This document shows, piece after piece, positions 39,378 to 60,601 of a stretch of 64,000 bases of DNA (within the stretch, counting starts at the first letter, position 1; each line of letters opens with the position of its first letter). The translations under genes and the position numbers were made by a program. The notes beneath the pieces were generated by a model. That model worked only from the letters and a program-made list of their open reading frames with translations, did no database searches and was not told where the DNA came from. Where the stretch lies: assembly GCF_030695125.1 (NCBI RefSeq), contig NZ_JAUYTP010000029.1:496001-560000 (forward strand), written 5' to 3'. This DNA is from Allobosea sp. GTDB taxonomy: Bacteria > Pseudomonadota > Alphaproteobacteria > Rhizobiales > Beijerinckiaceae.

Positions 39378-39393
39378 TGCAACCGCCATGCCA
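39378..39393 (-). promoter_or_regulatory. Sigma-54 promoter of the leftward amidase-2 operon
   Basis: Minus-strand TGGCATGGCGGTTGCA fits TGGCAYG-N4-TTGCW at all fixed positions, with GG and GC 12 nt apart. Expected start near 39367. Confidence 0.85.
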
Positions 39394-39403
39394 TGCCCGC
39401 TTT

Positions 39404-39415
39404 ATTGTATCCAAT
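39404..39415. promoter_or_regulatory. ATTG-TATC-CAAT operator
   Basis: Perfect ATTG/CAAT arms. It is separated from the leftward -24 box by exactly 10 bp, as at 39604, 40757 and 60590. Confidence 0.75.
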
Positions 39416-39603
39416 GCTGTGCGGCGCCTCGGGCGCCGAGTGGCTGCGATTCTCCTGTCGGCCTGCCGGAAACGGCGATGGTGAAGGGCGCATGCGCCCA
39501 ATAAAACGGCGGGTCTGTCTCGGCTTATTCGGCGCGAAAGCCGCTCGTCTCGACGCTTCCGCCTCTCGCTGGAGTGAGGCGTCCATTTTGACGGCAATGC
39601 TGC

Positions 39604-39615
39604 ATTGAATACAAT
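39604..39615. promoter_or_regulatory. ATTG-AATA-CAAT operator
   Basis: Perfect arms, 10 bp before the rightward -24 box, and 200 bp from the copy that serves the divergent operon. Confidence 0.75.
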
Positions 39616-39625
39616 CAATCGATCT

Positions 39626-39641
39626 TGGCATGGGCTTTGCT
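39626..39641 (+). promoter_or_regulatory. Sigma-54 promoter of the first isochorismatase-fold gene
   Basis: TGGCATGGGCTTTGCT matches TGGCAYG-N4-TTGCW. The leader to ATG 39724 would be about 70 nt. Confidence 0.85.
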
Positions 39642-39723
39642 GCGGCGCTGGGGCTATCGCCGGCGCGGCCCGAGGCGGGGCCTGAGCCGGCGCGACCCTC
39701 ATCCCGTCGATCAGGAGCGTCCC

Positions 39724-40431
39724 ATGCACACCATCGCGATCCCGGACTACGTTCTCCAGCGCGTCGTCGAGCGGCGCGGCAAGGTCAGGCTGTTCGAGAC
39801 GCTCGACCCGGCCCGCACCGCACTCATCGTGGTCGATCTCCAGAACGGCTTCATGGCGCCGGGCCAGCCGGCCGAAATCCCCTTTGCCCGCGAGATCGTG
39901 CCCAACGTCAACCGGATTGGGCAGGCGCTCAGGGCCGCCGGCGGCCTCGTCGTCTACATCCAGAACACGATCACGGAGGAGACGCAGGCCGACTGGTGCG
40001 TCTGGTTCGACAACTTCACCAAGGGTGACTTCAAGCAGCGCATGATCGCCGCCTTCGCGCGCGGCAGCTTCGGCCATGCGATCTATCCGGAGCTGGAGGT
40101 CCTGCCCGGGGATTGGGCGGTCGAGAAGCAGCGCTTCGGCGCCTTCGTCGAGGGCTCGTCGACGCTTCATACACAATTGCAGGAGCGGGGCGTCGACACG
40201 CTGATCATCGTCGGCACCGCCACGAATGTCTGCTGCGAGTCGACCGCGCGCGACGCGATGATGCTGAACTACAAGGTCGTCTTCGTCTCGGATGGCAATG
40301 CCTGCCGCACCGACGAGGAGCACAACGCGACGCTCGGCAACATCCTGGCCCTGTTCGGCGACGTCCAGTCGACAGATGAGGTGATCGCCACGATCGGCGC
40401 CGGCGCAGGCCTGCTACAGGCGGCCGAGTGA
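39724..40431 (+). CDS. Isochorismatase-fold cysteine hydrolase, copy 1
   Basis: The protein has 235 residues. Triad: D38 (VVDLQNGF), K135 (WAVEKQRFGAF) and nucleophile C170 (GTATNVCCESTARDA). The NVCxESTxRDA context is that of RutB/carbamoyl-type amidohydrolases rather than true isochorismatases. It therefore probably hydrolyses an amide or carbamate such as an N-carbamoyl intermediate; this is family knowledge plus context. Start at 39724 follows CAGGAG. It is a single-gene unit with its own promoter and terminator. A close paralogue lies at 46653. Confidence 0.9.
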   Translation: MHTIAIPDYVLQRVVERRGKVRLFETLDPARTALIVVDLQNGFMAPGQPAEIPFAREIVPNVNRIGQALRAAGGLVVYIQNTITEETQADWCVWFDNFTKGDFKQRMIAAFARGSFGHAIYPELEVLPGDWAVEKQRFGAFVEGSSTLHTQLQERGVDTLIIVGTATNVCCESTARDAMMLNYKVVFVSDGNACRTDEEHNATLGNILALFGDVQSTDEVIATIGAGAGLLQAAE

Positions 40432-40452
40432 AGTCCGGCACGCCCTGCCAGA

Positions 40453-40480: not shown

Positions 40481-40526
40481 TTGTCAGGCAGCGCGACCGT
40501 TGCGGGCGCGTGGAGTCGGCGAAACA

Positions 40527-40544
40527 TTGTGCAGCGCAGCACAA
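40527..40544. promoter_or_regulatory. Near-perfect dyad TTGTGC-N6-GCACAA
   Basis: Sixteen of 18 positions are self-complementary. It is about 240 bp upstream of the sigma-54 promoter at 40779, the distance range of enhancer sites for sigma-54 activators. It is not the NtrC consensus, whose half sites face the other way. Confidence 0.4.
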
Positions 40545-40595: not shown

Positions 40596-40607
40596 ATTGT
40601 GTGCAAT
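40596..40607. promoter_or_regulatory. ATTG-TGTG-CAAT distal operator copy
   Basis: Perfect arms, 161 bp upstream of the promoter-proximal copy at 40757. No sigma-54 box follows it, so it is an auxiliary site. Confidence 0.6.
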
Positions 40608-40756: not shown

Positions 40757-40768
40757 ATTGGACACAAT
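40757..40768. promoter_or_regulatory. ATTG-GACA-CAAT operator
   Basis: Perfect arms, exactly 10 bp before the -24 box at 40779. Confidence 0.75.
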
Positions 40769-40778
40769 CAAGCCGGCT

Positions 40779-40794
40779 TGGCACGGCCCTTGCT
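40779..40794 (+). promoter_or_regulatory. Sigma-54 promoter of the ABC importer operon
   Basis: TGGCACGGCCCTTGCT is a full consensus -24/-12 element. Start site expected about 40806; ATG at 40848. Confidence 0.9.
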
Positions 40795-40847: not shown

Positions 40848-42467
40848 ATGCCGCACAACTCGACAACATTCCGTTCGCTCGCCGCTCGCCTTGCCGCCGG
40901 CACTGCCCTGGCGTTTGGGGCCGCAGCCCTATCCTCCATCGCTCCCGCCCAGGCCCAGACGACGCTGCGCGTCGCGATGACGGCGGGCGACATCCCGGAC
41001 GTCACCGGCCAGCCGGACCAGGGCTTCGAGGGCTACCGTTTCGTCGGCTACACGCTCTACGACTCGCTCATTCTCTGGGACCTCTCGCGCTCGGATGTCG
41101 AGGCCTCGCTGACGCCGGGTCTCGCCACGAAATGGGAGATCGACCCCAAGGACAGCAAGCGCTGGATCTTCACCCTCCGCAAGGACGTGAAGTTCCATGA
41201 CGGGTCGGATTTCAACGCCGACGTCGTGCTCTGGAACGTCTCGCGCATCACCGATGAGAAGGTCCCGCATTTCAACGCCAAGCAGTTCGCGGCGATGCGC
41301 ACCCGCACCGTCAACATCGACCGCGCCGAGAAGATCGACGACCACACCATCGCGATCATCACCAAGGAACCGGATTCGCTCTTCTACATCCAGATGAGCT
41401 TCTGGATGATGATCTCCAAGGCGCAGTTCGAGAAGGCGGGCTCCTACGAGAAATACGCCCAGATGCCCTCGGGCACCGGGCCCTACCGCTTCGCCGGGAT
41501 GGTGCCGCGCGAGCGGCTGGAGCTGACCCGCAACGAGACCTACTGGAACCCCAAGCGCATCCCCAAGCATGACCGGCTGGTGCTGCAGCCGATGCCGGAG
41601 GCAACCACGCGGGCCGCGGCGCTGCTCTCGGGGCAGGTCGATTTCATCGAGGCGCCCTCGCCCGACACGATCGCGCGGCTGAAATCCTCAGGCATGCAGG
41701 TCATCACCCTGCCCTATCCGCATAACTGGCACTACCAGTTCAACTTCGTCGACGGCCCCTTCAAGGACGTTCGCGTGCGCCAGGCGGCGAACTACGCGAT
41801 GGACCGCGGCGAAATGGTCGAGATGCTGAACGGCCTGGCCCAGGAGGGCTATGGCACCGTGCCGCCCAGCTCGCCCTATTTCGGCAAGCCGGTCCTCTAC
41901 AAGCTGGATCCGAAGAAGGCGACGGCGCTGCTCAAGGAGGCGAAATGCTTCCCCTGCGAGGTCACGCTGGCGATCTCGACCTCCGGCTCGGGCCAGATGC
42001 AGCCGCTGCCGATGAACGAGCTGGTCAAGTCGCAGCTCGAGGCGGTCGGCTTCAAGGTCAAGCTCGAGGTGATGGACTGGAACGCCCTGCTCGACGTCAC
42101 CTTCAAGGGCCGCGAGAAGTTCCCCGCCTACCACGCCGTCAATGTCAGCCGCGCCACGCAGGATCCCTTCTCCGGCATCTTCCGCTTCGCCATGCGCAAG
42201 CAATGGGCCCCGGCCGGCGGCAACTGGGGCCACTACGAGAACCCCGAGATCGAGAAGCTGATCACGGAGATCTACAACACCTTCGACCAGACGAAGCGCG
42301 ACGCGATGATCACCCGCGTCCACGAGATCATGAACGCGGACGCCGCCATGCTCTTCGTCACCCATGACCTGAACCCGCGGGCGCTCTCGCCCAAGGTCAA
42401 GGGCTTCGTCCAGGCCCAGAGCTGGTTCCAGGACCTGACGCCGATCACCGTCGGCACCACGAACTGA
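40848..42467 (+). CDS. ABC transporter substrate-binding protein (family 5), copy 1
   Basis: The protein has 539 residues. Sec signal peptide (about 1-36, ending APAQAQ) and mature start TTLRVAMTAGDIPD. Family 5 hallmarks are the KDVKFHDGSDFNADVVLWN block, RQAANYAMDR and LKEAKCFPCEVTLAIST. The family binds peptides, nickel, opines or other solutes. A CFPC pair is shared with the second paralogue at 58880. First gene of a 9.6-kb operon with the permeases, both ATPases, an isochorismatase-fold enzyme, the asparaginase-fold enzyme and two membrane proteins. AGGGAG precedes the start. Confidence 0.95.
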   Translation: MPHNSTTFRSLAARLAAGTALAFGAAALSSIAPAQAQTTLRVAMTAGDIPDVTGQPDQGFEGYRFVGYTLYDSLILWDLSRSDVEASLTPGLATKWEIDPKDSKRWIFTLRKDVKFHDGSDFNADVVLWNVSRITDEKVPHFNAKQFAAMRTRTVNIDRAEKIDDHTIAIITKEPDSLFYIQMSFWMMISKAQFEKAGSYEKYAQMPSGTGPYRFAGMVPRERLELTRNETYWNPKRIPKHDRLVLQPMPEATTRAAALLSGQVDFIEAPSPDTIARLKSSGMQVITLPYPHNWHYQFNFVDGPFKDVRVRQAANYAMDRGEMVEMLNGLAQEGYGTVPPSSPYFGKPVLYKLDPKKATALLKEAKCFPCEVTLAISTSGSGQMQPLPMNELVKSQLEAVGFKVKLEVMDWNALLDVTFKGREKFPAYHAVNVSRATQDPFSGIFRFAMRKQWAPAGGNWGHYENPEIEKLITEIYNTFDQTKRDAMITRVHEIMNADAAMLFVTHDLNPRALSPKVKGFVQAQSWFQDLTPITVGTTN

Positions 42468-42482
42468 CGCGGCCTTGCCTTC

Positions 42483-42510
42483 GGGATGCGGCCCGTCGGG
42501 GCCGCATCCC
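42483..42510 (+). promoter_or_regulatory. Strong intercistronic hairpin after the binding-protein gene
   Basis: GGGATGCGGCCC-GTCG-GGGCCGCATCCC, a perfect 12-bp stem and tetraloop, 15 nt past the stop codon and without T-run. Such hairpins commonly protect the upstream binding-protein mRNA and lower expression of the permease genes. Confidence 0.7.
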
Positions 42511-42560
42511 CCTCCGAGCCCAAAGCGATCCAGGACCCGAGCCGACCGAAGGAGACCTCC

Positions 42561-43517
42561 ATGTGGCACTACATCGCCCGTCGCATCGTCTACGCGATCC
42601 CGATTGCCATCGGCGTCACGGTCTTCTGCTTCGCGCTGGTCTTCCTGGCCCCGGGCAACCCCGTCCAGATGCTGCTCCCGGCCGATGCCAGCCAGGAGGT
42701 CGTCGACCTCATCATGAAGACCTACGGCTTCGACCGGCCGCTGCCGGTCCAGTACTGGACCTGGCTGACGCGCGCCGTCGTCGGTGACCTCGGGGTCTCG
42801 ATCCAGTCCAACCGGCCGGTGATCGACGAGGTGCTGCGCGCGCTCGGCAACACCATCTTCCTCTCCTTCGGCGCGGTGATGCTGGCCTTCTCCATCGCCT
42901 TCGTGCTCGGCACGCTGGCGGCCTATTACCGGGGCAGCGCGACCGATCGCGGCGTCACCGCCCTGTCGATCGTCGGCGTCTCGATCCCCAATTACTGGCT
43001 CGGCATCGTCCTGGTCATCATCTTCGCCGTCGAGCTGAACTGGCTGCCGGCGACCGGCATGGGGCCGCGCGGCTCGGAGACCTTCAATCTCTTCGAATGG
43101 TCCCATTTCAAGCATGTGATCCTGCCGATCGTGACGCTCTGCATGGTGCCGGTCGGCATGATCACCCGCACCACGCGCTCCGCCGTCTCGGAGGTGCTCG
43201 GCAACGAATTCGTCAATACGCTGCGGGCCAAGGGGCTCGGCGAGCTCGCGGTGATCCGGCACGCGCTGAAGAACGCCATGCCGCAGATCCTGGCCGTGAT
43301 GGGTCTGCAGTTCGGCTACCTGATGGGCGGCTCGATCCTGGTCGAGACGATCTTCAACTGGCCGGGCACGGGCTTCCTGCTGAACAAGGCGATCCTGACG
43401 CGCGACATCCCCGTCCTGCAGGGCACGATCCTGATCCTCGCCCTCGTCTTCGTCTTCACCAACCTCGTCGTCGACCTGTTCCAGACCGCGGTCGACCCGC
43501 GCATCAAGCGCTCCTGA
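42561..43517 (+). CDS. Peptide/opine-type ABC permease (DppB family)
   Basis: The protein has 318 residues with six helices. N-terminal helix MWHYIARRIVYAIPIAIGVTVF is followed by the periplasmic loop (GNPVQMLLPADASQEVVDLI...YGFDRPLPVQYWTWL) and the coupling segment VLGNEFVNTLRAKGLGELAVIRHALKNAMPQ. Start at 42561 follows GAAGGAGA. It pairs with the DppC-type gene 10 nt downstream. Confidence 0.95.
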   Translation: MWHYIARRIVYAIPIAIGVTVFCFALVFLAPGNPVQMLLPADASQEVVDLIMKTYGFDRPLPVQYWTWLTRAVVGDLGVSIQSNRPVIDEVLRALGNTIFLSFGAVMLAFSIAFVLGTLAAYYRGSATDRGVTALSIVGVSIPNYWLGIVLVIIFAVELNWLPATGMGPRGSETFNLFEWSHFKHVILPIVTLCMVPVGMITRTTRSAVSEVLGNEFVNTLRAKGLGELAVIRHALKNAMPQILAVMGLQFGYLMGGSILVETIFNWPGTGFLLNKAILTRDIPVLQGTILILALVFVFTNLVVDLFQTAVDPRIKRS

Positions 43518-43527
43518 GGAGGCGGCC

Positions 43528-44430
43528 ATGACCGATTTTACCACGGCGACCCGCCTGCTCGCAGCGGAAGAAGAGGCCCCGGCCACCAAGGTTCGCGGCT
43601 ACTGGCAGAATGTCGGCTACCGCCTGCGCTACGACTACGTGACGCTCGCCTTCGCACTGGTCATCGTCCTGATCATCGCGATGGCGGTGTTCGCGCCCTG
43701 GATTGCGCCCAAGGATCCCTACAAGACCTCGATGGCCTTCCGGCTGCGCCCGGTCGGCTTCCGCGACTTCCATCTCGGCACCGACGAGCTCGGCCGCGAC
43801 ATCCTCTCGCGCCTGATCCATGGCGGGCGCATGTCGCTGCTAATGGGCGTGGTGCCGGTGGTCTTCGCCACCTTGATCGGCGGCTTCCTCGGCGTGCTCG
43901 CCGGCTTCATCGGCGGCAAGCTGAACATGGCGATCATGCGGACCATGGACGTCTTCTACGCCTTCCCCTCGATCCTGCTGGCGGTCGCGATCTCCGGCGC
44001 CATGGGCGGCGGCATGATGAACGGTATGGTCGCGCTGACGCTGGTCTTCATCCCGCCGCTCTGCCGCATTGCCGAGACGGCGACCACCCAGGTCCGCGGG
44101 CTCGATTTCGTCGAGGCGGCGCGCGCCTCGGGCGGCTCGACCCGGTCGATCATCGCCACCCACATCCTCGGCAACGTGCTCGGGCCGATCTTCATCTACG
44201 CCTCAGGCCTGGTCTCGGTCTCGATCCTGATCGCCTCGGGCCTCTCCTTCCTCGGCCTCGGCGTCGAGCCGCCGCATCCCGACTGGGGGCTGATGCTCTC
44301 GACCCTGCGCCAGTCGATCTACGTCAACCCGATCGTCTGCGCGCTGCCGGGCGTGATGATCTTCGTCACCTCACTCGCCTTCAACATGGTCAGCGACGGG
44401 CTGCGCCAGGCGATGGACGTCAGACTGTGA
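43528..44430 (+). CDS. Peptide/opine-type ABC permease (DppC family)
   Basis: The protein has 300 residues. An N-terminal cytoplasmic segment precedes helix 1 (VTLAFALVIVLIIAMAVFAPWIAP). The FHLGTDELGRDILSRLIHGGRMSL motif and the coupling loop RGLDFVEAARASGGSTRSIIATHILGNVLGPI are diagnostic of DppC/OppC. Its stop codon overlaps a possible GTG start of the next gene, but the ATG at 44442 is the likelier start there. Confidence 0.95.
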   Translation: MTDFTTATRLLAAEEEAPATKVRGYWQNVGYRLRYDYVTLAFALVIVLIIAMAVFAPWIAPKDPYKTSMAFRLRPVGFRDFHLGTDELGRDILSRLIHGGRMSLLMGVVPVVFATLIGGFLGVLAGFIGGKLNMAIMRTMDVFYAFPSILLAVAISGAMGGGMMNGMVALTLVFIPPLCRIAETATTQVRGLDFVEAARASGGSTRSIIATHILGNVLGPIFIYASGLVSVSILIASGLSFLGLGVEPPHPDWGLMLSTLRQSIYVNPIVCALPGVMIFVTSLAFNMVSDGLRQAMDVRL

Positions 44431-44441
44431 AAGGGCCCGCC

Positions 44442-45584
44442 ATGTCCACGACACCCGCTCCGACAGCCCGCCCGCCGCAGCTCGCGACCGTGCCCGAGGG
44501 AGACCTCCGCGATCGCGGCGGCCCCTCGCAGCCGATGCTGATCGTCTCCGATCTGAAGAAGCATTTCGCGATCAAGGGAGGAATGCTCAACCGCACGCAG
44601 GGGCATGTGAGGGCCGTCGACGGCGTCTCCTTCACCGTGCTCAAGGGCGAGACGCTCGGCGTCGTCGGCGAGTCCGGCTGCGGCAAGTCCACCCTGGCGC
44701 GGCTGTTGATGCACCTCATTCCCTATGACCAGGGCGAGGTTCTGTTCGACGGCGAGTCGATCGGCGGCGTCCGCGGCCTGACCATGAAGGAGTTCCGGCG
44801 CGCCATGCAGATGGTGTTCCAGGACAGCTACTCCTCGCTCAACCCGCGCCTCCCGGTCGAGGAATCGATCGCCTACGGCCCACGCGTCCATGGCATTCCC
44901 CCCGCCAAGGCCAAGGAGATCGCCCGCGAACTCCTGACCAAGGTCGGGCTCAAGCCCGATCTCTTCGCCCAGCGCTATCCGCACGAGCTCTCCGGCGGCC
45001 AGAAGCAGCGCGTCAACATCGCCCGGGCGCTCGCGCTCGAGCCGCGGCTGCTCATCCTCGACGAGGCTGTCTCGGCGCTCGACAAATCGGTCGAGGCGCA
45101 GGTGCTGAACCTGCTGCGCCAGCTCAAGCGCCACTTCAACCTGACCTATGTCTTCATCAGCCACGATCTCGACGTGGTGCAGTACATCTCCGACCGCGTG
45201 CTGGTGATGTATCTCGGCGAGATCGTCGAGATCGGGCCGGTGGATGCGATCTACGAGCATCCCAAGCACCCCTACACCCGCGCGCTGCTGGCCTCGCGGC
45301 TCTCCTTCGATCCCGCCGAGCGCGTCCATGAGGCGCCGCTGACCGGCGATCCGCCCAACCCGATCAACCCGCCCTCCGGCTGCCGCTTCCGCACCCGCTG
45401 CCCGATGGCGGAAAGCGTCTGCGCGGAAACCTCGCCCCGGCTCGAGGGCGCCGTCGCGGCCGACCTCCATGTCGCCGCCTGCCACGTCCAGAACCCGGGC
45501 TCTGGCCACAGCCTCGCCGGCAAGGCGCCGGTGCTGGTGCCCAGGCCGAAGGTCGGCGCCGCCGCCCTGGCCGCCACCGCGTGA
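44442..45584 (+). CDS. Peptide-type ABC ATP-binding protein (DppF/OppF-like)
   Basis: The protein has 380 residues. Walker A GESGCGKST, FQDSYSSLNPR Q-loop, LSGGQKQRVNIARA signature, Walker B LLILDEAVSALD, and ISHDLDVVQYI. The C-terminal Cys-rich segment (PSGCRFRTRCPMAESVCAE) is the usual iron-sulfur-like tail of DppD/DppF. The Walker B context DEAVSALD instead of DEPTSALD is uncommon but keeps the catalytic Glu. ATG 44442 follows AAAGGG; GTG 44427 is possible. Gene order DppF-like before DppD-like is reversed from the usual dpp order. Confidence 0.94.
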   Translation: MSTTPAPTARPPQLATVPEGDLRDRGGPSQPMLIVSDLKKHFAIKGGMLNRTQGHVRAVDGVSFTVLKGETLGVVGESGCGKSTLARLLMHLIPYDQGEVLFDGESIGGVRGLTMKEFRRAMQMVFQDSYSSLNPRLPVEESIAYGPRVHGIPPAKAKEIARELLTKVGLKPDLFAQRYPHELSGGQKQRVNIARALALEPRLLILDEAVSALDKSVEAQVLNLLRQLKRHFNLTYVFISHDLDVVQYISDRVLVMYLGEIVEIGPVDAIYEHPKHPYTRALLASRLSFDPAERVHEAPLTGDPPNPINPPSGCRFRTRCPMAESVCAETSPRLEGAVAADLHVAACHVQNPGSGHSLAGKAPVLVPRPKVGAAALAATA

Positions 45585-45594
45585 GGAGAAACCG

Positions 45595-46629
45595 ATGACG
45601 ACAGCCCTAGCGCCATCCGCCGTTCCCGGCCCCGTTGCCCTCGCCGCGGTCCGCCCGCTGGTCGAGGTCGAGGATCTCTCGGTCAAATTCGTCAGCCGCG
45701 AGGCGACGGTCTCGGCCGTGAACGGCGTCTCCTTCTCGATCCAGCCGGGCGAGGTGCTCTGCATCATCGGCGAATCCGGCTCCGGCAAATCCGTGACGAT
45801 GCGCGCCTTGATGCGGCTCCTGCCCAAGGGCCGGGCCAGGATCGGCGGCAAGATGCGCGTCGGCGATCACGACATCATGGCGCTCAGCGACAAGGAGCTG
45901 ACCCAGATACGCGGCTCCACCATCTCGATGATCTTCCAGGAGCCGATGACGGCGCTCGACCCCGTCTACACGATCGGCCACCAGATCGCCGAGACCGTGG
46001 TCAAGCACGAGGGCTGCTCCTATGCCGACGGGCTTAAGCGCGGGCTGGAACTGCTCGAATTCGTCAAGGTGCCCTCGCCGGAGCGGCGCCTGAAGGCCTA
46101 TCCGCACGAGCTCTCCGGCGGACTGCGCCAGCGCGCGATGATCGCGATGGCACTGTCCTGCCGGCCGCAGCTCCTGCTGGCCGACGAGCCGACGACGGCG
46201 CTCGACGCGACCGTGCAGATCCAGGTGCTGGTGCTGCTGCGCAAGCTCCAGCGCGACATGGGCATGAGCGTGATCTTCGTCACCCATGATCTCGGCGTCG
46301 CCGCCCAGATCGCCGACCGTGTCGCGGTGATGTATGCCGGCCGCGTCGTCGAATCCGGCCCGGTGCGCGACGTGCTGATGAACCCGCAGCATCCCTATAC
46401 CCGCGGCATGCTCGCCTCCTCCGTCCATGGCAGCGCGCGCGGCGTCGACATCGAGGCGATCCCTGGCTCGCCGCCGGACATGCGCCGCCTGCCGCCGGGC
46501 TGCGCCTTCGCGCCGCGCTGCAAATTCGCCGACGAGGCCTGCCGCGCGGCGAGCCCGCCGGAAACCTCGCCCGCGCCCGACCGGACCGTCTGCTGCTTCA
46601 AGGTCGGCGCGCCCGCCCTGTCCTCCTGA
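45595..46629 (+). CDS. Peptide-type ABC ATP-binding protein (DppD/OppD-like)
   Basis: The protein has 344 residues. Walker A GESGSGKSV, Q-loop FQEPMTALDPV, signature LSGGLRQRAMIAMA, Walker B LLLADEPTTALD, HDLGVAAQIADRVAVMYAG and the Cys-rich tail (PPGCAFAPRCKFADEACRA). Start at 45595 follows GAGGAG, 10 nt after the previous stop codon. It forms the ATPase heterodimer with the DppF-like protein. Confidence 0.95.
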   Translation: MTTALAPSAVPGPVALAAVRPLVEVEDLSVKFVSREATVSAVNGVSFSIQPGEVLCIIGESGSGKSVTMRALMRLLPKGRARIGGKMRVGDHDIMALSDKELTQIRGSTISMIFQEPMTALDPVYTIGHQIAETVVKHEGCSYADGLKRGLELLEFVKVPSPERRLKAYPHELSGGLRQRAMIAMALSCRPQLLLADEPTTALDATVQIQVLVLLRKLQRDMGMSVIFVTHDLGVAAQIADRVAVMYAGRVVESGPVRDVLMNPQHPYTRGMLASSVHGSARGVDIEAIPGSPPDMRRLPPGCAFAPRCKFADEACRAASPPETSPAPDRTVCCFKVGAPALSS

Positions 46630-46652
46630 CCCCTCGCACGAGAGAGCCCGCC

Positions 46653-47363: not shown

Positions 47364-47396
47364 CCCGGCGCGCGCGCCCGACACCCAGAGAGAGAT

Positions 47397-48398: not shown

Positions 48399-48400
48399 CG

Positions 48401-51427: not shown

Positions 51428-51441
51428 AGAGCGGACCTTCC

Positions 51442-52851: not shown

Positions 52852-53051
52852 CGGGCGCTCTCCTCGGTCGGGAAGCTGAAGATATGGGCCGGCTCGGCCA
52901 TGTAGCTGCGCTCGCCCCGGATCCGGGCCGACATCTCGACGATGTAGCCATAGGCCTCGGCATATTCGGCGACCTGCTCGGGCGTCAGGGTGAAGCCGGC
53001 CCGCGCCAGGAAGGCGCTCATCTCGGCTTCGGATGCGATCGGTGTCGGCAT
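52848..53051 (-). CDS. AtzG-like small amidase partner, copy 3
   Basis: The protein has 67 residues (MPTPIASEAEMSAFLARAGFTLTPEQVAEY...). Helix pair, then IRGERSYMAEPAHIFSF, the clearest example of the R-x4-Y-x2-EPAHIF tail. Overlap of 4 nt with amidase 3 implies coupled translation in equal amounts. Confidence 0.75.
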   Translation of the reverse strand: MPTPIASEAEMSAFLARAGFTLTPEQVAEYAEAYGYIVEMSARIRGERSYMAEPAHIFSFPTEESAR

Positions 53052-53121
53052 GGCTGGCGGTTCTCCTGTGGCGCGGGTCGAATGCCCGCAGGCCTGCGGG
53101 CGGCGAGGGGCCGGGCTCCGG

Positions 53122-54000
53122 CTAAAGCGGAACCTGGCGACGCTTGCGGTGCTCGTCCTGGAAGATGAAGACGGTCGCGCCCATCACGATCGCGGCGCCG
53201 ACCAGCGCCCAGCGATCGGGAATCTCCTGGTAGGCGAGCCAGGCAAACAGCGCGATGAAGGGCAGGCGGGCGAAGTCGAAGGGCATGACCGTCGAGGCCG
53301 GCGCATTGCGCAGTGCCAGGAACAGCGTCAGCCGGCCGACGAACATCGCCACCGCCATCACCACCAGGAACAGCATGATGTCGAAGGACGGCGTCCGCCA
53401 GTAGAGCACGGCGGGGATCAGCCCGGTGACCACGGGGATCAGGGTGGTGACGGCGACGATGCGGCTGGTGCTCTCGATCTGCGTCAGCCGCTTCGAGATC
53501 AGGTAGCTCGACGCCATCGAAAGGGTCGAGATCATCAGCGCGATGGTCCCGGCGTCGAGCGCGACGAAGCCCGGCCGTGAGATCACCATCACGCCGACGA
53601 AGCCGACCATCACCGCCGCCCAGCGGCTGCGCGAGACGGTTTCGCCGAGCAGCACGCCGGCTAGCGCCGTCACGATGATCGGGGCGGCGAAGGTCATTGC
53701 GGTGGCCTTGGCCAGCGGCACATGGGCAAGCGCATAGAACCAGGTCAGGTTCGAGACGCAGCCGACCGCGGTCATGATCGCATAGAGCCTGCGCTTCTCG
53801 CGCCGGTCCGGCAGTGGCGTGCCGCCCCTCAGCTGCGGCCAGACGAACACGAGCATGATCAGATTGGTCAGGAAGCTGATCTGGAACGGATGCAGCTCGG
53901 TCGCGATCTGCCGGACCAGCGAATTGCCGCCCGCCAGGAAGGCCGTACTCAGGATCATCCAAAGGATGCCGGCCTGGACGGTGTTGCGGGCCTCGACCAT
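53122..54000 (-). CDS. EamA/DMT-family membrane transporter, copy 3
   Basis: The protein has 292 residues with ten helices (first TVQAGILWMILSTAFLAGGNSLVRQIA, second repeat from DAGTIALMISTLSMASSYLISKRL). It is encoded between amidases 4 and 3 on the same strand with gaps of about 70 nt. It is distinct from copies 1 and 2 by inspection. Role as exporter or importer is not determinable. Confidence 0.87.
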   Translation of the reverse strand: MVEARNTVQAGILWMILSTAFLAGGNSLVRQIATELHPFQISFLTNLIMLVFVWPQLRGGTPLPDRREKRRLYAIMTAVGCVSNLTWFYALAHVPLAKATAMTFAAPIIVTALAGVLLGETVSRSRWAAVMVGFVGVMVISRPGFVALDAGTIALMISTLSMASSYLISKRLTQIESTSRIVAVTTLIPVVTGLIPAVLYWRTPSFDIMLFLVVMAVAMFVGRLTLFLALRNAPASTVMPFDFARLPFIALFAWLAYQEIPDRWALVGAAIVMGATVFIFQDEHRKRRQVPL

Positions 54001-54069
54001 GGCTCAGCAGGTTCCTCTGCGGCTTGCGTGAGGGAGACGGGCGGCCCCGACGGGCCGCCCGACCAAGAG

Positions 54070-55476
54070 TCAGGCGGCGAGCAGGGCGGGCCGCGTCACA
54101 CGCCACTGAGTCGCCTGCTCATAGGCGTGGCCGAGCTGGAACACAGTCGTCTCGGCGAAGGGGTGCCCGGCGAGCTGGATCGCGACCGGCAGGCCCGTTC
54201 CCGCCTCATAGCCGGCGCAGAGCGCCAGCGCCGGGAGGCCCGTAACGTTGAAGGGCATGGTGATCGAGGGCTTCTGGTACATCAGCCATTTCGGCACCTT
54301 GTCGATCGCCTGCGCCGGGAAAGGCGAGCCGGCCGTCAGCAGCACGTCGACGCCGATCATCGCCTCGGCGACGGCGGCGCAGAGCTCCTGCCGGCGCCGC
54401 AGCGCCTGGACATAGTCGGCGCCTGTCAAAAGCCCGCCCATGCTGATCCGGTCGCGCGCGATCTCGCCATAGAGTTCCGGCGTCGCCCGCAGATCCGCCT
54501 GGTGGATCGCGAAGGCTTCCGACGACATGATGATCAGCCCCACCGCGGCGAAATCCATCAGCGGCGGCAGCCTCACCTCCTTGATCACGCAGCCGAGCGA
54601 CTTGTAGACCGCGATCGCCTGCTCGATCGCCGCCAGCACGGGCGGCGCCGCCTGATGGTCGGTCTCGTGGAAATGACGGATCACGCCGATGGTCTTGCCC
54701 TTCACCGTCTCGTCGAGCTTTTCGGTGAAGTCCGGCACCGCCACATCGGCGCAGGCCGGATCGAGCGGGTCATGGCCCGCCATCGCCTGCAGCATCAGCG
54801 CCGCATCCTCGACCGTCCAGCACATCGGCCCGGCATGGTCGAGCGATTGCGACAGCGGGAGGATGCCCCTTCGCGAGAGCAGCCCATAGGTCGGCTTGAT
54901 GCCCGCCAACCCGCACAGCGAGGACGGACTGCGGATCGAGCCGCCGGTGTCCGAGCCGGTCGCGCCCAGCACCATGCCGGCAGCGACCGCCGCGCCCGAG
55001 CCGGATGAGGAGCCCCCCGTGGTCCGGGCCGGATCCCAGGGGTTGCGCGCGGGCGGCGTGAACAGGTCGAAGGAGGGCCCGCCGATTGCGAATTCGAAGG
55101 TGCCGAGCTTGCCGGTGATGACCGCGCCGCTCGCGCGCAGCTTCGTAACCGTGAAGGCGTCCTCGGTCGGCACGCGGCGCTTCAGCAGGTTGGAATGCCC
55201 CGTCGTGGCCACGCCAGCCGTATCGTAGATGTCCTTCAGCCCGACCGGAATACCGTGCATCGGGCCGCGCGGCCCGCTTGTCCCGATCTCGACTTCGGCC
55301 GCCTCGGCCGCTTCCAGCGCCAGCTCCGGCGTGAAGGCGACATAGGTGCTCAAGCTGGCGTCGAGCGCCTCGGTTCGAGCGATGCAGGCCTTGGTCAGCT
55401 CGACCGGCGAGAGCTTGCGCTTTGCGATCAGCGTCGAGGCCTCGCGGATGGTGAGCAGCGTGGGATCGCTGACCAT
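54070..55476 (-). CDS. Amidase-signature hydrolase, copy 4
   Basis: The protein has 468 residues. K81 in VGLKDIYDTAG, cis-Ser loop TTGGSSSGSGAAVAAG (about 152-167) and nucleophile S180 in GSDTGGSIRSP. Start at 55476 is chosen because the AtzG-like stop codon ends 2 nt before it and the amidase homology starts just after (LLTIREASTLIAKRKLSPVELTKA). It shares the long block GIKPTYGLLSRRGILPLSQSLDHAGPMCWTVED type with copies 2, 5 and 6. Confidence 0.94.
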   Translation of the reverse strand: MVSDPTLLTIREASTLIAKRKLSPVELTKACIARTEALDASLSTYVAFTPELALEAAEAAEVEIGTSGPRGPMHGIPVGLKDIYDTAGVATTGHSNLLKRRVPTEDAFTVTKLRASGAVITGKLGTFEFAIGGPSFDLFTPPARNPWDPARTTGGSSSGSGAAVAAGMVLGATGSDTGGSIRSPSSLCGLAGIKPTYGLLSRRGILPLSQSLDHAGPMCWTVEDAALMLQAMAGHDPLDPACADVAVPDFTEKLDETVKGKTIGVIRHFHETDHQAAPPVLAAIEQAIAVYKSLGCVIKEVRLPPLMDFAAVGLIIMSSEAFAIHQADLRATPELYGEIARDRISMGGLLTGADYVQALRRRQELCAAVAEAMIGVDVLLTAGSPFPAQAIDKVPKWLMYQKPSITMPFNVTGLPALALCAGYEAGTGLPVAIQLAGHPFAETTVFQLGHAYEQATQWRVTRPALLAA

Positions 55477-55477
55477 C

Positions 55478-55666
55478 TCAGCGACCCGCCGGCGCGAAGA
55501 TATGCGCGGGCTCGGCATCATAGCCGCGCGGCTGGCGTACGCGCTCGCGCATCGCCTGCAGCATCATGTAGGCGCTGCGCATTTCCTCCATGTTCGCAGG
55601 GCTGACGCTGATGCCGGCCCGGTCGAGCAGCACCTGGAAGGCTTCGGTCGAGATGGTCTCGCTCAT
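55478..55666 (-). CDS. AtzG-like small amidase partner, copy 4
   Basis: The protein has 62 residues, the shortest copy. ISTEAFQVLLDRAGISVSPANMEEM helix, then VRQPRGYDAEPAHIFAPAGR with the same tail motif as copy 3. Start at 55666 follows a GGAGACG-type site. Encoded 1 nt before amidase 4. Confidence 0.75.
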   Translation of the reverse strand: MSETISTEAFQVLLDRAGISVSPANMEEMRSAYMMLQAMRERVRQPRGYDAEPAHIFAPAGR

Positions 55667-55698
55667 GATCGTCTCCGGGAGAGGGGAATGCGGGGCCG

Positions 55699-57117
55699 TC
55701 ACTCGGCGGCGAGCGCCTGCTGCGCCCATTGCGCCGGGCGCAGATCGCGGAAGGCCGTGGCCTTCTCGAAGGCGCTGCCGACGCGCAGCACGAGATCGTC
55801 CTGGAAGGGCCGCCCGACGATCTGCATATTCAGGGGCAGCCCCGCCGCCGAGAAACCCGAACAAACCGACAGCGCCGGCGAGCCGGTCAGGTTGAAGACG
55901 CGGGTGAAGGAGGGCCGGGAGCGCGACATCATGTTGCCGAGGTCGCCGAGCTTGGGCGCCACGCCCGGCATGGTCGGACAGATCAGCACGTCGACGCTCT
56001 CGAACACGGTCGCGATCTCGGCGATCAGCCGGCCGCGCTCGCGCAGCGCGTTGACATAGTCGCAGGCGCGGATGAAGGCGCCCATCATGATGCGCTGGCG
56101 GGCAAGCTCGCCATAAAGCTCAGGCGTCGCCTTCAGCGTCTCCTCATGGAAGGCGAAGGCCTCCGAGCGCGAGATCAGGGCGGCGACGTCGCCATATGCC
56201 GAGAGCGGTGACAGCGTGACGTCCATCACCTCGCAGCCCAACTCCCGGAAGGTCACCAGCGCCGCCTCGATGCCGGCCTTGATCTCGGGGTCGATCTCGG
56301 CGTCGCTCTCGAAGAAATGCCGGACCACGCCGATGCGCAGCCCCTTTACATCTTTCTGCACGGAACCGGCGAAGTCGGGTTTGGCGACGTCGGCGCTGCC
56401 GGGGTCGAGCGGGTCGTGCTGCGCCAGCACCTCCATCATCAGCGCGCAATCCTCGCTGGTCCAGCACATCGGCCCGCCATGGTCGAGGCTGAAGGAGAGC
56501 GGCAGGATGCCCCGGCGGCTGACCAGACCATAGGTCGGCTTCAGGCCGGAAATCCCGCACCAGGCCGCCGGCCCGCGGATCGAGCCGCCGGTGTCGGTGC
56601 CCATCGAGCCCATGGCGAGCCCGGCCGCGATCGCGGCGCCCGAGCCGGAGGAGGAGCCCGCCGGATCATGGGCGAGGTTCCACGGGTTCTTCGCCGGCGG
56701 CCAGGGCAGGTCGAAGGAGGTGCCGCCGATCGCAAACTCCCAGGTCGAGAGCTTGCCGAGGAGGATGGTGCCCGCCTCCGCCAGGAGCCGCGTCGTCGTC
56801 GCATCCGCCTCGGGCACATGGTCCTTGTAGAGGGCGGAATGGCCGGTCGTGGGGATGCCCTTGGTGTTGTAGATGTCCTTCAGCCCGATCGGCACGCCAT
56901 GCAGCGGGCCCTTGTAAGCACCCTTCATGATCTCGCCCTCGGCCTTGCGCGCGGCCGCCATCGCCTGCTCGGGCAGCACGCGGATATAGGCGTTGAGCTG
57001 CCCGTCAAAGGCCTCGATCCGGGAGAGATAGGACGCGGTCAGTTCGACCGGGGAGAGTTTCTTCGCCTTCAGCAGCGGAGCGGCCTCGGCGATGGTCAAA
57101 TTGTGCAGCGCGGTCAT
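55699..57117 (-). CDS. Amidase-signature hydrolase, copy 5
   Basis: The protein has 472 residues. K80 in IGLKDIYNTKG, cis-Ser loop PAGSSSGSGAAIAAG (about 152-166) and nucleophile S179 in GTDTGGSIRGP. ATG 57117 is preferred to a GTG at 57129, which would overlap the AtzG-like stop codon; GAGGGCC lies before the ATG. Its neighbour genes are small partner 5 upstream and partner 4 downstream, in the repeating pattern partner-amidase. Confidence 0.94.
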   Translation of the reverse strand: MTALHNLTIAEAAPLLKAKKLSPVELTASYLSRIEAFDGQLNAYIRVLPEQAMAAARKAEGEIMKGAYKGPLHGVPIGLKDIYNTKGIPTTGHSALYKDHVPEADATTTRLLAEAGTILLGKLSTWEFAIGGTSFDLPWPPAKNPWNLAHDPAGSSSGSGAAIAAGLAMGSMGTDTGGSIRGPAAWCGISGLKPTYGLVSRRGILPLSFSLDHGGPMCWTSEDCALMMEVLAQHDPLDPGSADVAKPDFAGSVQKDVKGLRIGVVRHFFESDAEIDPEIKAGIEAALVTFRELGCEVMDVTLSPLSAYGDVAALISRSEAFAFHEETLKATPELYGELARQRIMMGAFIRACDYVNALRERGRLIAEIATVFESVDVLICPTMPGVAPKLGDLGNMMSRSRPSFTRVFNLTGSPALSVCSGFSAAGLPLNMQIVGRPFQDDLVLRVGSAFEKATAFRDLRPAQWAQQALAAE

Positions 57118-57125
57118 GGCGGCCC

Positions 57126-57317
57126 TCACTTGGTCCAGAGCCGGAGCGCGTGGATGGGCTCCTGCAGGTAGCTGCGCTTGACCCGGATGTTCCGGGCGGC
57201 GGTTTCCAGATCGGCGACGGAGCCCTTCAGGGACTCCAGCGTCTCCGGGCCGACCCTCAGGCCGTATTCGGCGAGCTTGGCCTCGATCGGGATCGGCGTG
57301 GCGGGCGTGTCGGTCAT
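57126..57317 (-). CDS. AtzG-like small amidase partner, copy 5
   Basis: The protein has 63 residues (MTDTPATPIPIEAKLAEYGLRVGPETLESL...). IRVKRSYLQEPIHALRLW keeps R-x-Y-x2-EPxH of copies 3 and 4. Encoded 8 nt before amidase 5. Confidence 0.7.
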   Translation of the reverse strand: MTDTPATPIPIEAKLAEYGLRVGPETLESLKGSVADLETAARNIRVKRSYLQEPIHALRLWTK

Positions 57318-57355
57318 GGCGGCCTCCGGGGCGAGGATGAAAAGGCGAGCGGCGG

Positions 57356-58780
57356 CTATTCGGCGGCGAGGCTCATCGGCGCCGCGGCCTCCAGGGCAGG
57401 CCGGCGCGCGCGCCAGGCGGTCGCGGCCTCATAGGCCTGGGCGGCGCGGTAGATCGTCGCCTCGCCAAAGGCATGGCCGGCGATCTGGACCGAGAGCGGC
57501 AGGCCGGAGGCCGAGAAGCCGCAGCACATCGTCAGCGAGGGCATGCCGGTGACGTTGAAGGGGATGGTCAGCGGCGGCTTGCTGAACAGGCCGAATTTCG
57601 GGATTTCGGTGATCACCGGGGCGGGCGTCGCGGTGGCCGCGGAGACGACGATGTCGAAGCGCGCCATCGTCTTGGCGACAGCCGCGACCAGTTCCGTCCG
57701 CATCCGCAACGCCTGGACATAGTCGCTGGCGTCGATCAGCCCGGCCAGCAGCAGCCGGTCGCGCAGGATCTCGCCATAGAGCTCGGGCCTCGCCTGGATG
57801 TTGGGCTCATGGATGGCGAAGGCTTCCGAGAGCAGGATCATCATCCCGCAGGCGGCGAAATCGGCCAGCGGCGGCAGCGTCACCTCCTCGACCGTAGCGC
57901 CGAGATCCGCCAGCGTCGTGGCCACCCCGGCGACCGCGCCTTGCACCTCGTCCGTGGCCTCCGCCTGCGCCCCGAGCGAGGGCAGATAGCCGACGCGCAG
58001 ACCCTTCACGCCGGCGCCCAGCAGCGCCTCGGGCATGGGGTCGGGCCGGTCGGCGCTCGCGGGGTCGAGCCGGTCATGCCCGGCGAGAACCTTCATGAGG
58101 AGGGCGTTGTCCTGGACCGTCCAGGTCATCGGGCCGATGTGGTCGAGGCTCTGCGACAGCGGCAGCACGCCGCGCCGCGAGACCAGCCCATAGGTCGGCT
58201 TCATCCCGACGAGGCCGCAGAACGCCGCCGGCAGGCGGATCGAGCCGCCCGTATCGGTGCCGAGCGCCGCCGGCACATAGCCGGCCGCCACCGCGGCGCC
58301 CGAGCCTGAGGAGGAGCCGCCGGTGAAATGCGCGAGGTTCCAGGGGTTGCGCGCCGGCGGGAAGGGCAGGTCGAAGGAGGGGCCGCCCATGGCGAATTCA
58401 TGGGTTGCCAGCTTGCCGAGGATGACAGCGCCCGCCGCCTTCAGCTTCTGGGTGACGAAGGCGTCGTCGGTCGCCCAATTGTCGATGAGCTGGTGCGAAT
58501 GGGCGGTGGTGCGCACGCCCTTGAGGTCGATGATGTCCTTCAGCCCGACCGGCACGCCATGCAGCGGCCCACGGCTGATCCCGGCCATCACCTCGTCCTC
58601 GGCCTTCTTGGCCTGGGCGAGGGCAAGATCGGCGGTCACTTCGATGAAGGCATGGGTCATCCCGTCGAGCGCGGCGACGCGGGCGATCAGCGCCTTCGTC
58701 AGCTCGACCGGGGAGACGGTCTTGGCAGCGATCCCTTTGGCAAGGTCTGCGACGGTCATGAAATGCAGCGGAGCGGACAT
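57356..58780 (-). CDS. Amidase-signature hydrolase, copy 6 (no adjacent small partner)
   Basis: The protein has 474 residues. K81 in VGLKDIIDLKG, cis-Ser loop TGGSSSGSGAAVAAG (about 153-167) and nucleophile S180 in GTDTGGSIRLP. It follows the second binding-protein gene directly; the 99-bp gap upstream contains a hairpin and cannot encode an AtzG-like protein. It may work alone or use a partner encoded by another pair. Confidence 0.94.
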   Translation of the reverse strand: MSAPLHFMTVADLAKGIAAKTVSPVELTKALIARVAALDGMTHAFIEVTADLALAQAKKAEDEVMAGISRGPLHGVPVGLKDIIDLKGVRTTAHSHQLIDNWATDDAFVTQKLKAAGAVILGKLATHEFAMGGPSFDLPFPPARNPWNLAHFTGGSSSGSGAAVAAGYVPAALGTDTGGSIRLPAAFCGLVGMKPTYGLVSRRGVLPLSQSLDHIGPMTWTVQDNALLMKVLAGHDRLDPASADRPDPMPEALLGAGVKGLRVGYLPSLGAQAEATDEVQGAVAGVATTLADLGATVEEVTLPPLADFAACGMMILLSEAFAIHEPNIQARPELYGEILRDRLLLAGLIDASDYVQALRMRTELVAAVAKTMARFDIVVSAATATPAPVITEIPKFGLFSKPPLTIPFNVTGMPSLTMCCGFSASGLPLSVQIAGHAFGEATIYRAAQAYEAATAWRARRPALEAAAPMSLAAE

Positions 58781-58835
58781 GGCACGGGCCTCCTGACGGA
58801 CGGTGGCGGGCGGCGGGATCGAGCAAAGGGTGGCG

Positions 58836-58868
58836 GCGGGGGCGGGCCGGGGAGGAAACCGCCCCCGC
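58836..58868 (-). promoter_or_regulatory. Intercistronic hairpin after binding-protein gene 2
   Basis: GCGGGGGCGG pairs with CCGCCCCCGC across a 13-nt loop. It lies just past the binding-protein stop codon, as the hairpin at 42483 does for copy 1. Confidence 0.55.
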
Positions 58869-58879
58869 GCCGGTGACGC

Positions 58880-60511
58880 TCAGTCGAGGCTGATCGTCAC
58901 GAAGTCCTGCATCCAGCTCTGGGCCGGCACGAAACCCTTCACCTTCGGCGACATCGCCCGCGGATTCAGGTCGTGGACGATGAAGAGCCGCCCGGCCTGC
59001 TCGCTGACGATCTCGTGCAGCCGGGTGAACATGGCGAGCGACTTCTCCGGCTCGAAGGTGTTCATCGCCTGCACCGCCAGCTCGTCGAACTCCTTGTTGT
59101 CGAACCAGCCCCAGTTCAGCCCGCCGGGCGCGCGCCTCGCGGTCGAGAAATGGCTGATCATGCCGGAGACGGGGTCGACCGAGCCGAGCGAGATATTGAT
59201 CGCGTCATAGGTCGGCGCGCGCTCCCAGCCCTTGAAGAACAGGTCGAGCAGGGCGTTCCAGTCGAGCACCTCGAACTTGACCCGGAAGCCGACCGCTTCG
59301 AGCTGCGCCTTGACCAGCTCGTTCATCGGCAGCGGCTGCATCTGGCCCGAGCCGGAGGTCGAGATGCCGACCGTGATGGCGCAGGGGTAGCAGCCGGCCT
59401 CCTTGAGCAGGGCCGTCGCCTTCTTCGGGTCGTAGGGGTAGGTCTTCGGCTTGCCGTAGATCGCCTGGTAGGGGGTGAACAGGGCCTCGCTTGCCTCGGC
59501 GATGCCGCCGAGCATCTCGACCATCTCCTTGCGGTCCATCGCATGGTTGGCCGCCTGGCGGACCTTGATGTCCTTGAAGGCGCCGCGCTGGAAATTGAAC
59601 TGGTAATGCCAGTTGTGCGGATAGGTCAGCGTCGTCACACGCATGCCCGCCGCCTTCAGTCGCGGTAGCGTATCGGGCGACGGCGCCTCGATGAAATCGA
59701 CCTGGCCCGAGAGCAGAGCCGCCGCCCGCGTCGTCGCCTCCGGCATCGGGATCAGCACCATGCGGTCATGCTTGGGCGTGCGGGCCGGGTTCCAGTAATC
59801 GGGGTTGCGCACGAGCTCGAGCCGCTCGCGGGGCACGACCGAGCCGAACTTGTAGGGGCCCGACCCCTGCGGCGACTGCGCATAGACCTTGTAGTCGTAG
59901 CCCGCCTTCTCCAGCGCGCATTTCGAGATCACGAACCAGACGGCCATGTTGTAGGGGAAGACCGATTCCGGGACCTTGGTGTCGACGGCGATGGTGTAGT
60001 CGTCGATCTTGACGGCGCCGGCGACGTTGACCGTGCGCGAGCGGTTGCGCGCGAAATGGACGGGATTGAACTGCGGCACCTTGTCGTCGGTGATGCGCGC
60101 GATGTTCCAGAGCGCGGCCTCGGCATTCCAGGGGCAGCCATCGTGGAACTTCACGTCGCGCCGCAGCTCGAAGATCCAGCGCTTGGTGTTGGTGGGATCG
60201 GGATACCATTTCGAGGCCAGCCCCGCCGTCGGCACCGCCTCGCGGTCCGAGCGCGTCAGGTCCCAGTTCAGGAAGCTGTCATAGAGCGAGAAGCCGACGA
60301 AACGCTGGCCTTCCGCGCCCTGATCGGGATGGCCGGTCCAGTCGGGAATGTCGCCGGCGGTCATCGCGACGCGAAGGACCTTTTCCTGGGCGAGTGCCGG
60401 GGCGGATGGCGCCAGCGTCAGCGTGGCGCCGATGGCGAGCGCGGCGAGAGCCGCCGACACGCGGCAGGTCAGGCGGGAACGGGGTGTTGGGATGGAAGCC
60501 GGGAACCGCAT
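58880..60511 (-). CDS. ABC transporter substrate-binding protein (family 5), copy 2
   Basis: The protein has 543 residues from ATG 60511, which follows GGAGG. Signal peptide up to APALAQ, mature start EKVLRVAMTAGDIPDW. It is a close paralogue of the product of 40848: shared blocks include MPEATTRAAALLSGQVDFIEAPSPDT and SGSGQMQPLPMNELVK, and a CYPC pair replaces CFPC. No permease or ATPase genes accompany it, so it probably feeds the importer encoded at 42561-46629, widening its substrate range. First gene of the long leftward operon. Confidence 0.94.
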   Translation of the reverse strand: MRFPASIPTPRSRLTCRVSAALAALAIGATLTLAPSAPALAQEKVLRVAMTAGDIPDWTGHPDQGAEGQRFVGFSLYDSFLNWDLTRSDREAVPTAGLASKWYPDPTNTKRWIFELRRDVKFHDGCPWNAEAALWNIARITDDKVPQFNPVHFARNRSRTVNVAGAVKIDDYTIAVDTKVPESVFPYNMAVWFVISKCALEKAGYDYKVYAQSPQGSGPYKFGSVVPRERLELVRNPDYWNPARTPKHDRMVLIPMPEATTRAAALLSGQVDFIEAPSPDTLPRLKAAGMRVTTLTYPHNWHYQFNFQRGAFKDIKVRQAANHAMDRKEMVEMLGGIAEASEALFTPYQAIYGKPKTYPYDPKKATALLKEAGCYPCAITVGISTSGSGQMQPLPMNELVKAQLEAVGFRVKFEVLDWNALLDLFFKGWERAPTYDAINISLGSVDPVSGMISHFSTARRAPGGLNWGWFDNKEFDELAVQAMNTFEPEKSLAMFTRLHEIVSEQAGRLFIVHDLNPRAMSPKVKGFVPAQSWMQDFVTISLD

Positions 60512-60563
60512 GCGAAACCTCCGGACGGGATGGGCGAGCCGCGATGCGGCTTGATCCGGGCTG

Positions 60564-60579
60564 TGCAATGCGCGTGCCA
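60564..60579 (-). promoter_or_regulatory. Sigma-54 promoter of the long amidase operon
   Basis: Minus-strand TGGCACGCGCATTGCA is a full consensus -24/-12 element. Start expected near 60553, about 42 nt before the ATG. Confidence 0.9.
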
Positions 60580-60589
60580 AGGCCAATAA

Positions 60590-60601
60590 ATTGTATCCAA
60601 T
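60590..60601. promoter_or_regulatory. ATTG-TATC-CAAT operator
   Basis: Perfect arms and the same 12-mer as at 39404, exactly 10 bp upstream of the -24 box. Confidence 0.75.

Follow-up and report, generated by a model that had tools for sequence, protein, structure and literature searches.

The stretch analyzed here, referred to as the window, comprises 64,000 nucleotides from Allobosea sp. (NCBI RefSeq assembly GCF_030695125.1, contig NZ_JAUYTP010000029.1, positions 496,001 to 560,000 of the forward strand). It carries a cluster of genes predicted to serve amide use, arranged in units A to E, and a gene (gntR) for a regulator with GntR and FCD domains; the units are preceded by palindromic operators associated with σ54-type -24/-12 boxes (Table 1). 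The original prediction, made from the letters alone, had singled out four of these promoters and placed their units in amide metabolism, an assignment supported by Pfam matches to amidases, isochorismatase-family hydrolases, an asparaginase, and peptide-type ABC transporters. The ABC transporter of operon C and the SBP_bac_5 binding protein of operon D are both of the peptide type, and gntR comes after the AbrB-family gene. The amidases scanned reached no curated NCBIfam cut-off among the matches listed, so "amide use" here denotes family membership only.

Table 1. Features of the amide-use cluster (positions are those of the window; ORF, open reading frame)
Feature	Position	Strand	Sequence or content
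Operon A	34786..39339	-	small ORF, amidase, EamA transporter, FmdA-like amidase, SDR (Pfam; kept in relatives)
Unit B	39724..40431	+	isochorismatase-family hydrolase (Pfam)
Operon C	40848..50469	+	SBP_bac_5, two permeases, two ATPases, isochorismatase-family hydrolase, asparaginase, EamA, AbrB-family (PF05145) protein (Pfam)
GntR/FCD regulator, predicted repressor	50690..51391	+	233 aa
Operon D	51442..60511	-	SBP_bac_5, three amidases, EamA transporter, small ORF, amidase (Pfam, NCBIfam)
Unit E	32152..34761	+	small ORF, amidase, APH-family phosphotransferase
Operator A	39404..39415	-	ATTGGATACAAT, centre -42.5
σ54-type -24/-12 box A	39378..39393	-	TGGCATGGCGGTTGCA
Composite A	39415 to 39378	-	ATTGGATACAAT-10-TGGCATG-N4-TTGCA
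Operator B	39604..39615	+	ATTGAATACAAT
σ54-type box B	39626..39641	+	TGGCATGGGCTTTGCT
Composite B	39604 to 39641	+	ATTGAATACAAT-10-TGGCATG-N4-TTGCT
Operator C, proximal	40757..40768	+	ATTGGACACAAT
σ54-type box C	40779..40794	+	TGGCACGGCCCTTGCT
Composite C	40757 to 40794	+	ATTGGACACAAT-10-TGGCACG-N4-TTGCT
Operator C, distal	40596..40607	-	ATTGCACACAAT; 149-163 bp before proximal operator in 7/7 genomes
Conserved element	40526..40541	+	ATTGTGCAGCGCAGCA; 70 bp (71 in G011) before distal operator C
Operator D, proximal	60590..60601	-	ATTGGATACAAT
σ54-type box D	60564..60579	-	TGGCACGCGCATTGCA
Composite D	60601 to 60564	-	ATTGGATACAAT-10-TGGCACG-N4-TTGCA
Operator-like site D, distal	60674..60685	-	..TGGATGCAAT; 84-85 bp from proximal operator in 6/7 genomes
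Operator-like site D, far	60841..60850	-	ATTGTATCCA; 249-387 bp upstream in 7 genomes
Operator-like site E, upstream	32048..32059	+	AATGTATCCAAA; 30 bp before box E
Weak σ54-type box E	32090..32105	+	CGGCACATGGTTTGCA
Operator E, over -12 box	32100..32111	+	TTTGCATACAAT
Operator-like site before gntR	50488..50499	+	ATTGCATACAGT; 202 bp before gntR start

At promoters A, B, C, and D, an ATTG-N4-CAAT palindrome is followed, after exactly 10 bp, by TGGCAYG-N4-TTGCW, all four composites lying where the original prediction had located them. With the GG set as -25/-24, the palindrome centre computes to -42.5, in agreement with the predicted -42; the palindrome lies outside the normal enhancer range, at a conserved spacing to the σ54 boxes. 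A scan of the whole source genome (5,129,228 bases in 87 contigs) for the composite with a relaxed σ54 box gave four matches, all in this cluster and none at unrelated genes, while the reversed control pattern gave none. The tight operator core ATTGNAYACAAT was found five times, likewise always in the cluster (the proximal operators of A to D plus the distal one at 40596), which fits a local regulator. The strict box TGGCAYGN4TTGCW had seven matches, four of them in the cluster; the other three precede ABC-transporter genes (by Pfam, two solute-binding proteins and one ATPase) and have no palindrome within 40 bp before the box. Between positions 30000 and 61000 there are just five σ54-like boxes (at most 2 mismatches, GG and GC kept), each with an operator 10 or 30 bp upstream, and 60 first-order Markov resamples of this interval gave a mean of 0.00 operator–box pairs.

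The arrangement is conserved in Bosea relatives. Scanning 397 genomes of the family yielded 86 matches in 58 genomes, of which 20 had a spacer of 10 bp (the other 66 had different spacers) and 19 of these 20 belonged to this cluster, in five genomes. Contigs contributed two more, G788 and G776, bringing the genomes with promoters A to D to seven. All 28 aligned promoters have both operator and box, with a spacer of 10 bp in 27 and of 11 bp in one (G011); single mismatches occur in two operators (A of G011, D of G788) and in one box (B of G788). The TGGCA and TTGC of the -24/-12 elements, with the invariant GG and GC, are present in all 27 spacer-10 promoters. Mean pairwise identity between genomes in these 27 was 0.93-1.00 across the operator, compared with 0.34-0.80 across the spacer. 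The spacer sequences therefore differ, as the original prediction held, but the palindrome centres are not free, since operator column 6 is A in 27/27. The distance from proximal to distal operator C is 149-151 bp in three genomes and 161-163 bp in four, and operators A and B are 187-189 bp apart in five genomes and 198 and 184 bp apart in one each. In a corresponding scan at the level of the order, matches were found in 5/397 genomes, two of them from this genus and the other three (G746, G671, G710) with poor boxes.

Could the constant spacing simply reflect common descent, in related genomes that have not yet undergone an insertion or deletion at this point? In line with this, the strict spacer-10 composites all come from one genus, and the two outside it (G139, G746) have poor boxes. 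We nevertheless consider such an origin unlikely, because the spacer sequence has drifted (identity 0.34 at D) while insertions and deletions occur frequently in other parts of these intergenic stretches, because the length is common to four different promoters, and because two relatives with a rearranged cluster, G291 and G202, have spacer 10 at a further promoter with the box TGGCA-CTGCA.

The list of four promoters proved incomplete, a fifth and weaker one, E, being located at about 32.1 kb. Its boxes, GGCA[CT] and TTTGC, are kept in all six genomes whose stretch reaches promoter E, and in each of these an operator, TTTGCAT[A/G]CAAT, overlaps the -12 box; the same layout, with an operator over the -12 box, is also found before the orthologous amidase in G235, a genome of another genus. 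The upstream site of promoter E is AATGTATCCAAA in three of the six genomes and has one or two changes in the other three, and its distance to the box is the same in all six although the sequence between them has diverged.

The original prediction implied a regulator but left out gntR, which sits inside the cluster. Its product exceeds the curated cut-offs for PF00392 (55.3 bits, cut-off 27) and PF07729, the FCD domain (63.7 bits, cut-off 24.3), and is matched by no NCBIfam model at E ≤ 1e-30. The best match of known structure is Atu1419 of Agrobacterium fabrum (PDB 6z74; E 9.7e-25). In our reading of the alignment, eight of the nine DNA-contact and metal residues of Atu1419 are kept: the contacts E34, R45, T46, and R49 (4/5) correspond to E29, R40, T41, and R44 here, and the metal ligands N137, H141, H192, and H214 to N133, H137, H182, and H204. 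The G3/C8 positions of the Atu1419 10-mer also correspond to TTGNATNCAA. All nine Bosea orthologs of gntR have, 188-202 bp ahead of the gene, a site that departs from TTGNATNCAA at no more than 1 position, suggesting that gntR may be autoregulated, and such sites precede gntR by 64 bp in G235, 119 bp in G291, and 116 bp in G202. Orthologs at least 84% identical were found in 9 of the 67 genomes of the genus, and these nine include all seven genomes with the composites; the other two are G777, whose short contig covers no promoter A to D, and G084. Orthologs 91-93% identical are present in three Bosea contigs (L034, L036, L037) and in one metagenome-assembled genome of the Hyphomicrobiales (L035).

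These data point to the in-cluster GntR/FCD protein as the likely owner of the palindrome, the link being a strong one by inference. LacI-family proteins too recognize palindromes, and a gene of this family (30839-31918) lies directly before promoter E; such a protein, or else a global factor, might bind the operators in its place. This seems rather unlikely to us: Atu1419, the FCD relative, reads sites with the same core TG-N4-CA geometry, the upstream site before gntR recurs in 9/9 Bosea orthologs, G235, G291, and G202 retain gntR in their rearranged clusters, and within the genome the tight site is confined to this cluster, which makes a global factor in particular unlikely.

The rearranged versions of the cluster come from G235 (GntR 57% identical) and from G291 and G202, both of the same genus as the source (GntR 54% identical). 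Operators precede σ54 boxes with spacers of 1, 19, and 20 bp in G235 (3 of 11 boxes), 1, 10, 30, and 48 in G291 (4 of 6), and 1, 10, 29, and 48 in G202 (4 of 7), against means of 0.03-0.18 operator–box pairs, and at most 2, in Markov resamples of these clusters. Besides 10 bp, then, spacings near 1, 19-20, and 29-30 bp occur in relatives. G235 has additional operators over the -12 box (spacer -22) and, at two other boxes, just after the -12 element (-27) and downstream near the expected start (-39).

The upstream spacers of distinct promoters tend to fall on the same face of the helix (n=13, R 0.76, Monte Carlo p 0.0003). The bias persisted when spacer 10 was entered once per clade (n=10, p 0.007) and in the strictest set (n=6, p 0.014, period 10.5). 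In this test, G202 was merged with G291 (1, 10, 29, 48) and the spacer of 11 in G011 with that of A; operators downstream of -24 (spacers -22, -27, and -39) and the composites with strict boxes from other genera (spacers 1, 2, 13, 16, 17, 23, and 29) were set aside. Given the small sample and the relatedness of the genomes, helical phasing of the operators can be called likely, not proven.

Overall, we regard it as probable that the GntR/FCD protein binds the palindrome and represses five σ54-type promoters of predicted amide-use operons until a pathway ligand releases it. Often it would occupy two or more operator copies that appear to be helically phased. At -33 or over the -12 box, it would directly block σ54-RNA polymerase; at -42, -52, and -62, it would either abut the polymerase on one face of the DNA or hinder the loop made by the enhancer protein. 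A repressor role is the easiest common account of sites in all these places, occlusion explaining the first two. Operators could in addition be joined by DNA looping, if the protein is a tetramer like Atu1419, and activation would come from NtrC under nitrogen shortage. Each promoter would then work as an AND gate, reading nitrogen need via σ54 and its activator and the presence of substrate via GntR. A more specific version, which we put forward only tentatively, is that a tetrameric FCD regulator bridges the phased operators and represses by blocking the enhancer–polymerase loop, with operators shifting during evolution by whole turns (about 1, 10, 20, and 30 bp) and so staying on one face of the DNA.

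The original prediction had left the choice between a repressor and a co-activator open. In the latter role, GntR at -42.5 would help σ54-RNA polymerase to bind, in a class II-like manner, and the near-invariant 10-bp spacing (27/28) would indeed suit direct protein contact. The σ54 boxes are themselves strong, another point in favor of this alternative. However, operators are also found on the -12 element, close to +1, and with spacers of 1, 19-20, and 29-30 bp, and one precedes operon A of G291, where there is no σ54 box; moreover, σ54 complexes need an AAA+ activator anyway, and a search of the GntR protein for an AAA+ domain found none. We therefore judge a co-activator improbable: positive evidence for it was not found, and a repressor is the better option because in promoter E and in G235 operators sit on the -12 box or immediately behind it. 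Still more remote is the idea that a σ54 activator such as NtrC uses the palindrome as an enhancer site at unusually short range. σ54 promoters do require such a protein, and no other upstream activator site was found, but a protein at -33 or over -12 would stand in the way of the polymerase and the tight site is found nowhere else in the genome. The dyad is also unlike the Pseudomonas NtrC consensus, GCACCA-N3-TGGTGC (PMC12977541).

Several observations weigh against repression by GntR/FCD at phased operators of σ54 promoters. In G235, 8 of 11 σ54-like boxes lack an operator -10 to 60 bp upstream; conversely, the operator before operon A in G291 has no σ54 box. G084 keeps a GntR that is 84% identical yet has no composite, its reduced cluster retaining FmdA and gntR with a ATTGGATACAGT site. 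The DNA-contact wing glycine of Atu1419, G66, is not kept (N61 here). Box E is weak, the T of TGGC being lost in 6/6 genomes; in the source genome, A also replaces the last G of TGGCAYG. Regarding the phasing, the best-fit period of 9.5-9.7 bp is shorter than 10.5, spacer 48 in G291 and G202 and the A–B distance of 184 in G788 fit imperfectly, and the phasing of the far D site is not significant (p 0.17). The spacers entered are few in number, linked by descent, and in part of our own choosing, and they include a -1 entry whose -12 box has lost its GC. Promoter B may hold an additional, σ70-like promoter, TTGACG-N16-TACAAT (39588-39615), the -10 of which lies inside operator B; TTGACG is present in three of the five genomes examined, and TTGACG or TTGGCG stands 16 bp upstream of TACAAT in four of them, which makes a second promoter at B possible. 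NtrC-like dyads gave 2 matches in 22 upstream regions (A, C, and D in seven genomes plus E in the source genome; B was not separately scanned) versus 2.00 expected from shuffles. Finally, Sigma54_DBD had no match in the source draft assembly (98% complete), while all eight relatives tested have one; the missing RpoN is probably an assembly gap.

A reading of the palindrome as a σ70 -10 element at A, C, and D was rejected, as no -35 (at most 3/6 matches) was seen in any of the five genomes examined.

Among possible activators, G306, which has promoters A to D and gntR, encodes NtrC and FlbD above the cut-off and an AtoC-like response regulator below it; its NtrX candidate owes the name to its position next to ntrC, and three weak matches were taken as other AAA+ proteins. 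NtrC is the candidate that best fits the predicted function, although NtrC-type dyads are not enriched. PII-gene promoters, compared as a source of an NtrC motif, revealed no common one. The element ATTGTGCAGCGCAGCA, kept before distal operator C in 7/7 genomes (with changes in G306), was considered as an enhancer site but left unassigned: with at most 2 mismatches it has 26 matches in the genome versus 5 for the control, and one of four other copies inspected precedes an ORF that we read as phasin-like. G084 has, some 2 kb away from its gntR ortholog, a coding region for a σ54-activator domain (C1:3690122-3690616), possibly a cluster-linked activator.

To our knowledge, few repressors act directly at σ54 promoters. 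In Pseudomonas sp. ADP, PatzR/AtzR is reportedly a case of a σ54 promoter that has no upstream activator sites, is driven by NtrC, is locally repressed, and serves a triazine-type nitrogen source; AtzR is said to be of the LysR type and to act at a single promoter, unlike the system described here. UTRA is the ligand domain of HutC-type regulators. The GntR protein has FCD instead and would work like the HutC system without being a member of it. Pseudomonas HutC, a GntR repressor encoded with nitrogen-catabolic genes, as here, protects a region overlapping the σ54 site of PhutU, a promoter activated by NtrC/CbrB, and forms higher oligomers (PMC12977541, PMC8871633). HutC itself belongs to the GntR/HutC type and recognizes TGTA-N2-TACA, whereas the regulator here is of the FCD type and its layout recurs at five promoters; neither a conserved helical spacing nor a series of σ54 promoters is described in the passages on HutC that were consulted (PMC12977541, PMC8871633).

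Atu1419 is closer in kind. It is described as the first tetrameric GntR regulator and as a repressor that recognizes ATGTATACAT; its two sites are separated by 190 bp, and looping between them is proposed (PMC7797058). It shares with the present system an FCD (PF07729) repressor of its own and neighboring catabolic genes and 10-mer palindromes with G3/C8, and the 190 bp between its paired sites compare with 184-198 bp between operators A and B here; it differs in that its palindromes lie at predicted -10/-35 boxes, its pathway is that of hydroxycinnamates, and its proposed ligand is methylene-tetrahydrofolate (PMC7797058). Paired operators are seen in this cluster as well; an Atu1419-type looping repressor would bind two of them at once as a tetramer. 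In synthetic σ54 enhancers, a factor placed between NtrC enhancer and promoter quenches expression with a periodicity of about 10-11 bp (PMC4740811); those enhancers were engineered with LacI, TetR, or TraR, while the apparent phasing here is natural. If loop blocking by an FCD protein were true, it would be the natural counterpart of such "quenching" enhancers.

Literature searches with the five operator 10-mers returned no bacterial operator study that we recognized among the matches listed, and in the papers listed by the searches made, on GntR/FCD together with σ54 among others, neither an FCD regulator on σ54 promoters nor a native series of helically phased operators was found. The view in the original prediction that no described regulon has this layout needs the caveat that HutC at PhutU is a GntR repressor overlapping a σ54 site. 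GntR repression of a σ54 promoter is therefore already known; what appears to be new is that the regulator is of the FCD type and that a layout with several phased operators is present and conserved. Related regulators with operators at about 1, 10, 19-20, and 29-30 bp before the -24 box and over -12, in related gene clusters, amount to a natural spacing experiment, such that helical-phase dependence at σ54 promoters becomes testable with native parts. The cluster also offers a candidate AND gate for the scavenging of amide nitrogen and a functional lead for a regulator left unnamed by NCBIfam at the threshold given above.

Two side observations concern similar sites elsewhere. In three genomes of genus g28 (L161, L162, L163), ATTGT[T/G]CACAAT stands one base before TGGCACATGRCTTGC; the ORF after this site in L163 has no NCBIfam match. 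ATTG-N4-CAAT with σ54-type boxes is also found before MSMEG_0572-family nitrogen-starvation genes (TIGR04044) in G268 (L168:2948-3547, spacer 16) and G093 (L017, spacer 1), suggesting that a similar layout may control another nitrogen cluster.

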